Assembly (NCBI RefSeq): GCF_001375555.1
Contig: NZ_CTDZ01000009.1
Location: 1,729,758-1,793,757, forward strand
Length of the DNA: 64,000 nt
DNA from: Numidum massiliense
Lineage (GTDB): Bacteria > Bacillota > Bacilli > Thermoactinomycetales > Novibacillaceae
Reading direction: 5' to 3'
Shown: in pieces, positions 3,013 to 33,481 of the stretch
How the letters are laid out: every line of letters starts with the position of its first letter
Numbering within the stretch: the first letter of the stretch is position 1
Notes under the pieces: generated by a model
What the model saw: only the letters and a program-made list of their open reading frames with translations
Told to the model about the DNA's origin: nothing
Databases searched by the model: none
Translations under genes and position numbers: made by a program

Positions 3013-4557
3013 TTAGAGCGTCTTCTTTTTCGACTTCGGCTCGTCTTTGAAGTACAGCCATTTATCGAAGAACGGTTGTAAATCTTTGTTGCTCACTTCG
3101 GAGGCCGTGCGGATGAAGTCAGCAGTCGTAGCTTCCTTGTCTTTATAGCGCGTAAAATACTCCCGCATCACCGCGATGACCTTCTGTTCGCCAATCTCGT
3201 CGACGAGCGCCCACATCATCGCTGTTGGACGCGCATAGACCATTAAGCCGTACAACTGTTCCGGATAATCGTACACTTTTTGCACCACTGTGAGCCCACT
3301 CTGCTTATTGATGCGCTCACTACCTGCAGCCGCTTGCGCATACATCTCCCGTTCGTCTTTTCCTTCCACTTTCCGCATGTACAACGACTCGGAAAACGAC
3401 GTTAACCCTTCGTCTAACCACGGTTCTTTTACTTGGTCGTTGCCAACCATGCCATACCACCACTGGTGAGCCAACTCGTGCGCGACCACGTTCACTGCCG
3501 GCTGCTCACCATCCTGCATCATGATGCGGTCGACAGAAGTGACAAGACCCGGGTACTCCATCCCAGCGATCCCGTGACCGTGTTCGCCGAGAACGACATC
3601 GATCTCCTCGTAAGGGTAAGTACCGAACGACTCGTTGAAAAAGCGCATCGCTTTTACAGCTGCTTCGTACATCGGCGCAGCGACGTCTTTCATCGCTCCG
3701 CGGTACCACAAATTGACGACCGTATCGCCAACTTTACCGGTCCTCACGCGGTAATCTTTCGTGACGACAGCGGCGAAATCGCGCACGTTACGTTGCTTCA
3801 GCGTCATCTTTTGTGACAGTTTCCGTCTGCCGTCGCCAGGCGCCGTACTAATGACGCGGTACCCTTTCGGCACGCGAAACGTCACTGTAAAATCGGCCAT
3901 TTTCGTATAAAATGGGTCGCCGATCGTCGTGTACCGGTCTTTGTGCCAACCTTCTCTGTCGTAAACGGCGAGCATCGGGTACCACTGCGCCAAAAAGGCA
4001 GTACCCGCAACGTGGTTTAAGCGGCTTCCGCCTTCAGGAAGCTGTACCGTAAACGCCATCTCGACAGTCGCTTTTTTGTGTGCCGGCAGTGGCTCTGCGA
4101 GCACGAGCTTCATTAATGTCTTGTCGATTTCCGGTTTTACCGCCACACCGTTTACGGTGATGTCGCTAACTTTAATGTACCCTTCCTTTTCCGGTGCAGC
4201 CGCCTTATTGTATGACCAGTCTTTAAAGGCGTTCGGAAACAGGTGAAAATATATTTCTGGCCACGTCTCCTGTCCGAGGTTTGGGACGGTCACGCGCTGC
4301 TTTCCGACAAGTTTATAGTTTTTCTCGTCGTATTGTACCTCGATGTCGTAGGCGGGGCGTTCGCGCGATGACCGCACCTCGCTATAGGCAATCGGTACGT
4401 TTTTCTGCACCATCGCCTGCTCGCCGTGTTGTTCACTGCGCACGGCAGAGGTGCCGGCTGTTTGCGGCGTCGGTTCGTCCGTCTGCCAAAACTGGTATAG
4501 CGACACCGTTAAACAGATCATCCCGACGACTAATAGGACGAGATAACGCTTTTTCAC
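3013..4557 (-). CDS. Membrane-anchored M1-family metallopeptidase
   Basis: Zinc aminopeptidase-like enzyme of the gluzincin M1 clan. A basic start followed by a hydrophobic stretch (about residues 5-25) gives an N-terminal signal anchor, so the catalytic part should face outward. The zinc site is HELAHQWWYG with the third ligand Glu in EPWLDEGLTSF about 20 residues later. The substrate-recognition motif, usually GAMEN, reads GMEYPG. The GTG at 4557 (514 aa) is chosen because it begins the signal anchor and AGAGGTGGTG precedes it; the longer frame to 4686 lacks such support. Transcribed alone downstream of the sigA terminator. The substrate cannot be told from sequence. Confidence 0.85.
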   Translation of the reverse strand: MKKRYLVLLVVGMICLTVSLYQFWQTDEPTPQTAGTSAVRSEQHGEQAMVQKNVPIAYSEVRSSRERPAYDIEVQYDEKNYKLVGKQRVTVPNLGQETWPEIYFHLFPNAFKDWSYNKAAAPEKEGYIKVSDITVNGVAVKPEIDKTLMKLVLAEPLPAHKKATVEMAFTVQLPEGGSRLNHVAGTAFLAQWYPMLAVYDREGWHKDRYTTIGDPFYTKMADFTVTFRVPKGYRVISTAPGDGRRKLSQKMTLKQRNVRDFAAVVTKDYRVRTGKVGDTVVNLWYRGAMKDVAAPMYEAAVKAMRFFNESFGTYPYEEIDVVLGEHGHGIAGMEYPGLVTSVDRIMMQDGEQPAVNVVAHELAHQWWYGMVGNDQVKEPWLDEGLTSFSESLYMRKVEGKDEREMYAQAAAGSERINKQSGLTVVQKVYDYPEQLYGLMVYARPTAMMWALVDEIGEQKVIAVMREYFTRYKDKEATTADFIRTASEVSNKDLQPFFDKWLYFKDEPKSKKKTL

Positions 4558-30282: not shown

Positions 30283-30627
30283 TTAGCCTGGCGGCCATCC
30301 GAGATGGCGCCCGCCTAATAAGTGATAGTGCAAGTGGTCGACCGTTTGCCCCCCCTCATTGCCACAGTTGTTGACGAGGCGAAAGCCTTTTTCAGCTATG
30401 CCTAAATCGCGCGCCAATTGCCCAGCTGTGCGGTGAATCGCCCCGATGAGCGGCAACTGCTCCTCGGCGACGTGCAGCGCAGAGGCGATGTGCACTTTCG
30501 GAATGATCAAGACGTGCACCGGTGCGGCTGGCGAAATATCTTCGAAAGCAAGCACTTCCTCATCCTCGTATACTTTCTTACTCGGCAATTCACCGGCCAC
30601 GATTTTGCAAAAGATGCAATCACTCAC
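30283..30627 (-). CDS. HIT-family nucleotide hydrolase
   Basis: Histidine-triad protein of the Hint/HinT type, which hydrolyses adenosine phosphoramidates and related nucleotides. The N-terminal CIFCKIVAGELPSKKVYED and the triad HLHYHLLGGRHLGWPPG near the C-terminus are intact. 114 aa, as expected. GTG start with GAGGGGGT upstream. The physiological substrate is not deducible from sequence. Confidence 0.95.
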   Translation of the reverse strand: MSDCIFCKIVAGELPSKKVYEDEEVLAFEDISPAAPVHVLIIPKVHIASALHVAEEQLPLIGAIHRTAGQLARDLGIAEKGFRLVNNCGNEGGQTVDHLHYHLLGGRHLGWPPG

Positions 30628-30740: not shown

Positions 30741-31811
30741 TTACGTGTAACTGCGGAGCTCGCGCAACAAAAAGCGGCGCCGCTTCCAGACGTAAGCAGC
30801 TAACAATTGGCGCTCTTTGTCTAACAAGTGGTCAATGTCATAAGGCTCGCCCTCATAACGGGCAATTTCTGGACGGACGCGTGCCATTAGCTGATCGATT
30901 TTGGGCATGAGAACGTGTGGTGCAAGTGTCCTTGTTAGTATGTCAGTCATAAACTGCACGTAATACGCTTTAAACTCAGGCACGGATAACACGCGTTCCG
31001 TCAGGCGGTTGTAACCGCACAGCGGCACATAATGCGATGACAGCGGTTCGCCGTAGCAATCTCTACCCCAAGTTCCGTCGTAGTCCCACGGAATGATCCA
31101 CCACTTTTTTTTGACAGGGTGAAAGTATAGCGCGTAATTGTGAATAAATCCATCGACGTTGCTCGTTAAGACGACACCCGCTAACCAGCGCAAATAATGT
31201 TTAACCGCAACGTTTTGCACGAGAAACGCTTTGAGACTGCCTTCATCTACCGTATTGAGTTGCCAAATAAACCGAGCCAACCGTTGCCATGCCTCGCGGC
31301 TATGCCTTACTTTTAGCTCATAACCGTCTGTCATCTTTTTTTTCAGTACGGGTTTGTCGTCCCCGTAGCGGAGACTGAAGTTGGCCCGGTTGTCTATCGC
31401 ATAAAAAATATCCCCGCGCGGTAAGCGGCGACGCTTTAAAAACGATTGGTCGACCGACTCTAGTAACGTGTATACGCCGAGCGCAGCGCCGTTCAGGCTG
31501 ACCGTGACATGTGTTGCCCGCGGCGACAACACGTTCATTTTGAGAAACGAATCAAACGACAGTTTACTGCGAATCGCCGACGGGTCGACAAAGTCGGCGT
31601 TCAAGTGCGATTCACGTCGCTCTCCCCGAATGTAGAACGATTTTTTGGTGTAGCTACGCGTGTGTGCGCCACGGTATTTGAGTCTGATCGCTTCTGTGGC
31701 GACACCGGTTTTTAAGTATGCGGGGACGGTCTTTTCTGCCCAAATATTTTCGTTTAACGCCATTAAGTGCTGCGGTGCGACGAACAGCGCGTAACGTGGA
31801 AGGGCATGCAC
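30741..31811 (-). CDS. cotH: CotH-type spore coat protein kinase
   Basis: CotH-family atypical kinase; in B. subtilis CotH phosphorylates Ser-rich repeat coat proteins such as CotB and CotG and is needed for outer coat assembly. Features: an early RLKYRGAHTRSYTKKSFYI segment (nucleotide-binding loop region), YTLLESVDQSFLKRR, SNVDGFIHNYALYFHPVKKK and the metal-binding PWDYDGTWGRD near residue 260. 356 aa from the GTG at 31811, which has GGAGG 11 nt upstream; longer frames reach 31880. A sigma-K-like promoter lies just upstream, and a basic Ser/Pro/His-rich protein gene is divergently arranged. Confidence 0.88.
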   Translation of the reverse strand: MHALPRYALFVAPQHLMALNENIWAEKTVPAYLKTGVATEAIRLKYRGAHTRSYTKKSFYIRGERRESHLNADFVDPSAIRSKLSFDSFLKMNVLSPRATHVTVSLNGAALGVYTLLESVDQSFLKRRRLPRGDIFYAIDNRANFSLRYGDDKPVLKKKMTDGYELKVRHSREAWQRLARFIWQLNTVDEGSLKAFLVQNVAVKHYLRWLAGVVLTSNVDGFIHNYALYFHPVKKKWWIIPWDYDGTWGRDCYGEPLSSHYVPLCGYNRLTERVLSVPEFKAYYVQFMTDILTRTLAPHVLMPKIDQLMARVRPEIARYEGEPYDIDHLLDKERQLLAAYVWKRRRFLLRELRSYT

Positions 31812-31845
31812 GAGACAAACCACCTCCGGAAATGAAACCTCAATA

Positions 31846-31873
31846 CAGAGTATGTCCGGCTTTGTCCCGGAGT
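31846..31873 (-). promoter_or_regulatory. Candidate sigma-K promoter of cotH
   Basis: On the minus strand an AC dinucleotide (31872-31873) lies 17 bp from CATACTCTG (31846-31854), close to the sigma-K pattern AC-N16/17-CATANNNTA with one mismatch. It is about 35 nt upstream of the chosen cotH start. Confidence 0.45.
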
Positions 31874-31908
31874 GTTGCACAACAGACCATTTTTATCACA
31901 GGCTTATA

Positions 31909-31935
31909 ACGTTTTTTAGTGGGACACATATAATA
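31909..31935 (+). promoter_or_regulatory. Candidate sigma-K promoter of the divergent coat-protein-like gene
   Basis: AC (31909-31910), 16 bp, CATATAATA (31927-31935) matches the sigma-K consensus AC-N16/17-CATANNNTA. It lies 38 bp before the start codon at 31974. The TATAAT inside could also be read as a sigma-A -10, but no matching -35 was seen. Confidence 0.55.
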
Positions 31936-31973
31936 CACCATCATGATCACTTGCCCGAGAGGAGTGAACACCT

Positions 31974-32459
31974 TTGGTCAAAAAAACGACGTCACACGCT
32001 AAACTACGCCAGCTCATTCGCAAAATGATTGTCGAGGAGCTCGATAAGGTTCTACGGTCACACGATCCGCGTCACGTCTCGGAAAGCTCCGGGGGCATTA
32101 ATTTGGATCCCCGTTTCTCCACAGGGCACTACATGAGAGAGTCGGTACCGTTCCCGAAAGACCATGTACCTTTTCCACACTCGGAGCGCCCACGGCGTTC
32201 GTCAAGACGTCCGCATCGATCGGCGGGCAAAAAAAGACCCGAACGCCACCGCGAGTTACCGCAACATCCACACATTTCGTCGCCCAAACCGTTTGAATCC
32301 AAGCCGTTTACCTCGCTGCCGCATATGTCTCCGTGGGGTGCAGGTGGCTGGGGGCCGGGGCTGCAAGGTAACGAGATACAACCACCTATTGGCAGTCAGC
32401 CATATTTTAACAGCTTGCAACCGTATCCCCAGCAACACCCGGAGGAAAACAACAAATAG
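31974..32459 (+). CDS. Basic Ser/Pro/His-rich protein, candidate spore coat protein
   Basis: 161 residues, not recognised as a known family. The first 28 residues form a charged helix (KLRQLIRKMIVEELDKVLR). The middle is Ser/Arg/His-rich (RPRRSSRRPHRSAGKKRPE, about residues 72-92), and the C-terminal half is low-complexity with Pro, Gly, Gln, Ser and Asn, ending PQQHPEENNK. There is no signal peptide or membrane helix. TTG start at 31974 with AGGAG 9 nt upstream. It is divergent from cotH with a sigma-K-like promoter between. In B. subtilis cotG, a CotH substrate, is also next to cotH. A role as coat protein and CotH target is inferred from composition and position only. Confidence 0.65.
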   Translation: MVKKTTSHAKLRQLIRKMIVEELDKVLRSHDPRHVSESSGGINLDPRFSTGHYMRESVPFPKDHVPFPHSERPRRSSRRPHRSAGKKRPERHRELPQHPHISSPKPFESKPFTSLPHMSPWGAGGWGPGLQGNEIQPPIGSQPYFNSLQPYPQQHPEENNK

Positions 32460-32557
32460 CACCGCCACACTGTTTACGGGACGCTCTGTTGTCCTAAAAT
32501 AAGTCATGCTCGTACGCCTCACACCATATCGTTTAAGTATGGTGGAGGTGTAGAAGG

Positions 32558-33481
32558 ATGCGGGAAATTGTCATTCCGCTAGCGACGGGATTAGCGATTT
32601 TTTTATTCGGGATGCAAGTATTGCGCCTCGGGCTCGCCCGCCTGACTGGTAATCGATTGCAAAAGTGGCTATACCAGTTTACGCAAACGCCGTTCATCGG
32701 TTTTTTGACCGGGTTAGTCGCTACTGTCGTCCTACAGAGTAGCAGTGCGGTCACCGTAATCATCATCGGCTTTATCAATACGAAAGTGATGCGGTTTTCC
32801 CAGACGATCGGGCTGTTGCTCGGCACGAATGTCGGTACGTGTGTGACGACAGAACTACTCGCTGTCTCCATCGAAAAACACGCCCTGTTCCTTCTACTCA
32901 CAGGTGTCGCCTGTCTCGTCCTCCCATGGGCTAATCTCCGCTTTATCGGGCTCGCCGTCGCCGGTCTCGGCTGTATTTTTCTCGGGATGCAAGCGATGGC
33001 GAGCGTCGCCGGTTCGTTCGAGCGAATCGGCTTTTTCGACTTTGTGTCCACGTCGAATAGCACGCTCGCGGGCGTACTCATCGGCACGTTGTTCTCGGCC
33101 GTCATTCAAAGCAGTAGTGCCACGATCGCCTTAATGATGGGCTTGTATCACGCGCATGCCGTGACGCTGCCGTTTGCCCTCGCCGTCGTGCTAGGTAGCA
33201 ATGTCGGGACGTGCGTGACCGCTTGGATCGCCGCTGTCGGCGGCGATCGTGAAGGTAAACAAATCGCGCTCGCCCACTTGCTCATTAACGCCGTCGGCCT
33301 GCTCGCCTTTTACCCGCTGACGCCGTACATCGCCGATTGGCTCGGCGGTACGACACTCACTCGCTATGCGCAAGTGGCCCACTTTCAAACCGGGTTTAAC
33401 GCAATCTCCGCGCTGCTGTTGTTACCGTTCAGTCACGCCCTCGCCCGCTTCGTGGGCCGCCTGCTCCCGACTTCATCTTAA
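32558..33481 (+). CDS. yqeW: Na/Pi cotransporter family protein
   Basis: Integral membrane protein of the Na+-dependent phosphate symporter family. It has the duplicated core signature: QSSSAVTVIIIGF near residue 60 and QSSSATIALMMGL near 188, each followed by a GTNVGTCVT- or GSNVGTCVT-type motif (near 88 and 216). About eight hydrophobic segments are visible. 307 aa, the length of the YqeW type without the C-terminal PhoU-like tail. GGAGGTG precedes the ATG. One of the few plus-strand genes. The transported ion has not been proven for this subfamily. Confidence 0.9.
   Translation: MREIVIPLATGLAIFLFGMQVLRLGLARLTGNRLQKWLYQFTQTPFIGFLTGLVATVVLQSSSAVTVIIIGFINTKVMRFSQTIGLLLGTNVGTCVTTELLAVSIEKHALFLLLTGVACLVLPWANLRFIGLAVAGLGCIFLGMQAMASVAGSFERIGFFDFVSTSNSTLAGVLIGTLFSAVIQSSSATIALMMGLYHAHAVTLPFALAVVLGSNVGTCVTAWIAAVGGDREGKQIALAHLLINAVGLLAFYPLTPYIADWLGGTTLTRYAQVAHFQTGFNAISALLLLPFSHALARFVGRLLPTSS

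Follow-up and report, generated by a model that had tools for sequence, protein, structure and literature searches.

The cotH kinase gene in the 64-kb stretch of DNA analyzed here (the window) faces a gene for a 161-aa, low-complexity basic protein (P161), which raises the question of whether this protein is a spore-coat partner of the kinase or its neighbor by chance. In B. subtilis, phosphorylation of the basic protein CotG is known to depend on CotH (PMC7821199, PMC9765600). In line with these studies, cotH in Bacilli was usually found divergent from a CotG-like gene: approximately 23 of the 30 cotH loci inspected in this class had a divergent gene encoding a short head followed by a low-complexity tail. 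CotG-like proteins have been described as non-homologous between species (PMC9765600). Below, the order denotes the host order (n = 42 genomes), G000 is the window's own genome, and G001 represents another genus of the same family (the sister genus).

The kinase gene, already named as cotH in the preliminary description, is intact. In a profile search its product matched PF08757 over the full length of the model (208 bits against a cut-off of 23.8, model positions 1–322), and it also matched B. cereus CotH 5jd9 (Table 1). The NxDG and PWDYD stretches, 23 residues apart, are preserved (SNVDGFIHNY and IIPWDYDGTWGRD in the alignment with 5jd9), and we take their Asp residues to be catalytic in CotH. 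No other PF08757 protein is encoded in the host genome, and a contig scan with CotH as the query gave a sole match, in one remote MAG. Translation likely begins at GTG 31811 rather than at 31880, which leaves a gap of 162 bp to the P161 start; the same divergent arrangement was found in the sister genus.

Table 1. Features of the cotH–P161 region, in positions of the window.
Feature	Position	Strand	Basis or remark
HIT-family protein (putative, name read from HIT-like sequence), left border of the conserved slot	30283..30627	-	Synteny
cotH kinase, 356 aa, GTG start	30741..31811	-	PF08757 E=3e-61; 5jd9 E=3.5e-86
Ribosome-binding site of cotH, GGAGGTGG	31820..31827	-	Sequence; 8-nt spacing to GTG 31811
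Weak sigma-K/sigma-E-like box before cotH, AC-N17-CATACTCTG	31846..31873	-	-10-like part kept in sister genus, -35 not
Sigma-K-like promoter of P161, AC-N16-CATATAATA	31909..31935	+	Conserved upstream of 36/39 family members
Ribosome-binding site of P161, AGGAG	31960..31964	+	Sequence
P161, 161-aa basic disordered protein of an order-wide family	31974..32459	+	TTG start; homologues in 41/42 order genomes
N-terminal head of P161, amphipathic helix HAKLRQLIRKMIVEELDKVLRS, residues 8–29	31995..32060	+	AF2; conserved in family and in f12 cotH-divergent proteins
Ser-Arg/His block ERPRRSSRRPHRSAGKKRPERHRE, residues 71–94, candidate phosphorylation site	32184..32255	+	Sequence
Na/Pi symporter of the yqeW type, bordering the slot on the right	32558..33481	+	NF037997 E=4e-83; downstream in 39/39 loci

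P161 has a pI of 10.3, a net charge of +11 and a KRH content of 24%. A single-sequence AF2 prediction gave the helix listed in Table 1 (pLDDT 84–93 over residues 11–30) and an unstructured remainder. The protein matched no model in Pfam or NCBIfam, and no tandem repeats were found by TRF down to score 30. A full-length search in 150 relatives recovered one clear relative, in the sister genus (47% over 98 aa); there, too, the gene is divergent from cotH, with the Na/Pi gene downstream. The conserved part of this pair comprised the N-terminus and a DPRFSTGHY stretch; the Ser-Arg/His block, to which the preliminary description had drawn attention, is present in P161 but is not kept as such in this nearest homologue.

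Since the full-length search reached only the sister genus, an N-terminal profile was needed. A profile of the first 63 residues matched many frames of 100–200 aa in the order, and a 16-row profile built for the family matched 41 of the 42 order genomes with E-values down to 1e-38, as opposed to two weak matches among approximately 360 Bacilli outside the order. Extra-order matches of the full-length and 63-residue searches at E-values of 1e-3 to 0.1 were discarded as mostly low-complexity sequences or interrupted frames. The idea that the P161 frame is a chance ORF, suggested by its low complexity and non-ATG start, is refuted by this conservation and has virtually nothing left to recommend it: homologues are in frame across the order and carry a Shine-Dalgarno sequence and start codon in 41 of the 42 genomes. 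P161 is thus a genuine gene, and the preliminary description was right to place one divergently from cotH. Family members share an LRxLIRKMVxEEL-like head (LRxLIRKMxxEEL) and mostly a proline-rich tail, and no Pfam or NCBIfam model covers them. Most also have a W-A-x-F-G (W-x-FG) motif and a C-terminal PPFIP-like motif, neither of which was detected in the two cotH-adjacent members. One genome, G020, contains a second copy outside the HIT–Na/Pi slot (G020:C1:1592500-1602500), with a Ser/Lys/Arg-rich tail; no cotH was found in that genome.

The promoter region was compared over 39 loci, with the second G020 copy left out. The pattern AC-N16/17-CATANNNT, in which CATANNNT is CATANNNTA with the last A relaxed, occurred upstream of the start in 36 of the 39 members, which are related and hence do not represent 39 independent events; in 200 dinucleotide shuffles the mean was 0.86 and the maximum 4, and the reverse strand gave 0. 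The exact pattern AC-N16/17-CATANNNTA preceded 23 of the 39. Because this exact pattern occurs four times in the window, neither the P161 box nor the cotH box is significant by itself; it is conservation in 36 of 39 loci, against a shuffle maximum of 4, that makes the P161 box significant. Sigma-K-like boxes had been reported on both sides of the intergenic region. Both are where they were described, and the one before P161 is conserved throughout the order, but the cotH-side box is the weaker of the two: in the sister genus its -10-like part (CATACGGTA, for CATACTCTG in the window) is retained, and the AC is absent at the correct distance.

The bases that vary among the promoters are the three middle ones, which are unspecified in the sigma-K consensus (CATATAAT, CATAGGAT, CATACACT, CATATGAT), and this choice of variable positions argues against sigma-A. 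This bears on the possibility that P161 is a vegetative accessory of the downstream Na/Pi symporter, expressed from the TATAAT inside CATATAATA. The symporter gene does follow in all 39 loci, and TATAAT occurs in several members, including that of the host. Other members, however, have CATAGGAT, CATACACT, CATATGAT or CATATACT, which keep CATA and T rather than TATAAT and have an AC at 16/17, the pattern of sigma-K; moreover, relatives of P161 that are divergent from cotH in a distant family (f12, see below) have a coat-like character, being either rich in repeats or strongly basic. We therefore regard this explanation as quite improbable. The host has an intact SigK (372 bits against a cut-off of 299), and together with the order-wide promoter conservation this supports the sigma-K-type control proposed earlier for the 161-aa gene, whose product is probably made late in spore formation. 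Downstream, an inverted repeat (CACCATA-N9-TATGGTG, 32522–32550) runs into the ribosome-binding site of the symporter gene, and G001 carries a similar one (CACCATATGTTGGTAGTATGGTG); translational control is a possible function.

The gene has a fixed position ahead of the Na/Pi symporter gene. In 35 of the 39 loci the upstream, divergent HIT gene directly adjoins the P161 family gene; cotH lies between the two in G000 and G001 only (2/39), G032 has a 3.4-kb interval there, and no HIT gene was seen upstream of the family gene in G003. It had been proposed to test whether homologues always neighbor cotH. They do not: the gene is present in 41 of the 42 order genomes and cotH in three, in two of which, from sister genera, the genes adjoin. 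In the third, G015, cotH lies on a separate contig, where its small neighbor genes are different ones; several that follow it share a TNxNINII motif and are likely another set of coat proteins. A CotB search of the order with a CotB-like query from f12 was uninformative because it also missed G260, a control bearing cotH and cotG.

Since other members of the order lack cotH beside the gene, the core function of the family cannot be that of a kinase substrate. P161 could alternatively be a coat protein specific to the order, controlled by sigma-K and functionally unconnected to CotH, beside which cotH came to lie by chance in one lineage; the adjacency in just 2 of 39 loci, the conservation of the family without cotH, the lack of repeats in P161 and the non-conserved Ser block are all as this explanation would predict. 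The net charge of the proteins points the other way. Among 40 family members, the two highest values, +11 and +8, belong to exactly the two beside cotH, the others ranging from -7 to +6, although this correlation amounts to one event because the two come from sister genera.

Further evidence came from f12, a family far from the host order in the MtaB tree. Three of its genomes (G226, G412 and G242) encode basic proteins divergent from cotH that carry a P161-type head (LxxLIRxIVxEEL). In G242 a 55-aa basic protein adjoins cotH, and the same cotB-like cluster encodes an (SDGKHK)n protein at a distance of approximately 5 kb. Profile A5 contained only this G242 pair from f12, so that its best other matches among 41 genomes, in G412 (E=7e-7) and G226 (E=1.5e-6), were found blind; both matched proteins have K/H/S repeats and are immediately divergent from cotH. 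When the order-family head profile was compared with that of f12, hhalign gave a probability of 96.7 and a score of 39, vs. a maximum of 18 in 200 column shuffles. Similarity to conventional CotG heads was weak (hhalign probability 19), with 2 of 200 column shuffles scoring higher. The window CotH, although a full-length PF08757 member, differs from other CotH kinases in branching deeply among the CotHs of Bacilli, together with three from f12. In the unrooted CotH tree the window CotH, that of G001 and the three from f12 are separated from all others (95/85); a fourth f12 CotH, that of G377, falls elsewhere, and its partner bears a head of the conventional type.

The blind matches and the grouping of the kinases provide independent support for a CotH partnership. 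A distant family has a common head opposite cotH in three of its genomes, their kinases group with that of the window, and P161-family proteins are most basic exactly where cotH adjoins; these observations speak against chance, and we consider an accidental neighborhood rather unlikely. Counting against the partnership, a helix of 20 residues can arise by convergence. The f12 proteins resemble P161 in their N-terminal helix, basic character and divergence from cotH; they differ in that most have K/H/S tandem repeats, and those of G242 sit in a cotB-like/sigK cluster, whereas P161 is encoded between the HIT and Na/Pi genes. That region of G242 (C1:986000-1000000) is a compact outer-coat cluster containing the sigma factor gene itself, an uninterrupted sigK-like gene beside a run of cotB-like genes (one with DUF6897), cotH and the genes for two basic proteins with LIR heads. 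In three genera of f12, the gene divergent from cotH is preceded by a nearly identical leader, GGTACCAAATTGTATGTAGGAGG. A similar helix, LKNIIREIIQEELQSF, forms the C-terminus of a cupin protein of G075 (3833–4294 in its locus); given this protein, the LIR head may be either a coat-associated module able to move between proteins or a product of convergence.

With B. subtilis CotG and CotG-like proteins (including ExsB), P161 shares its divergence from cotH, basic character, predicted disorder, short N-terminal module with a low-complexity tail, and sigma-K-like promoter. It appears to differ in its N-terminal head, and it differs in having no tandem repeats and in a far lower charge: +11, compared to +57 for CotG and +20 for the B. 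licheniformis protein (PMC9765600). Its family also differs in being conserved order-wide without CotH. Because the defining tandem repeats are absent, P161 was not classified as CotG-like. The CotG-like relation to CotH envisaged in the preliminary description is thus supported as regards the head common to f12 cotH-divergent proteins and the highest charge beside cotH, but not as regards repeats. P161 probably works like a CotG-like protein in this lineage. CotG needs no phosphorylation for assembly when its repeats carry less charge (PMC9765600), a parallel to the mostly neutral, weakly basic or acidic family members of genomes without cotH.

On balance, we moderately favor the view that P161 is a late-sporulation coat protein and a CotG-type partner of CotH in this lineage, and that its family mostly persists without the kinase. 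P161 would be produced late in the mother cell under sigma-K and located in the spore coat, where its conserved amphipathic helix would act in assembly or docking and the rest would be a disordered, fast-varying tail. In the lineage in which the gene is paired with cotH, the tail is basic and contains Ser, most likely making P161 a CotG-type partner; CotH would phosphorylate tail serines, thereby balancing charge and allowing coat assembly. In the rest of the order, where the kinase is absent from the locus, the protein has the same helix and mostly a less basic tail with W-x-FG. Its underlying coat role would thus be independent of CotH.

cotH may have been lost in most of the order or recruited in this lineage. 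The MtaB tree does not settle at its base whether family f1 is sister to the remainder of the order, and one loss of cotH is therefore not separable from several. We tentatively put forward, as a possibility still short of being probable, that proteins with an LIR head form a new class of CotH partners, defined by that head. The ancestral pair of cotH and partner gene would have survived in f12 and here, whereas most other members of the order would have lost the kinase but retained its onetime substrate, with a tail that was subsequently no longer strongly basic. A head common to two distant families would provide one line along which CotG-like proteins could be traced. What appeared as one low-complexity ORF belongs to an order-wide, mostly single-copy sporulation gene family lacking a Pfam or NCBIfam model, and this family offers a natural experiment on coat phosphorylation, in which the same protein occurs with and without a neighboring kinase.
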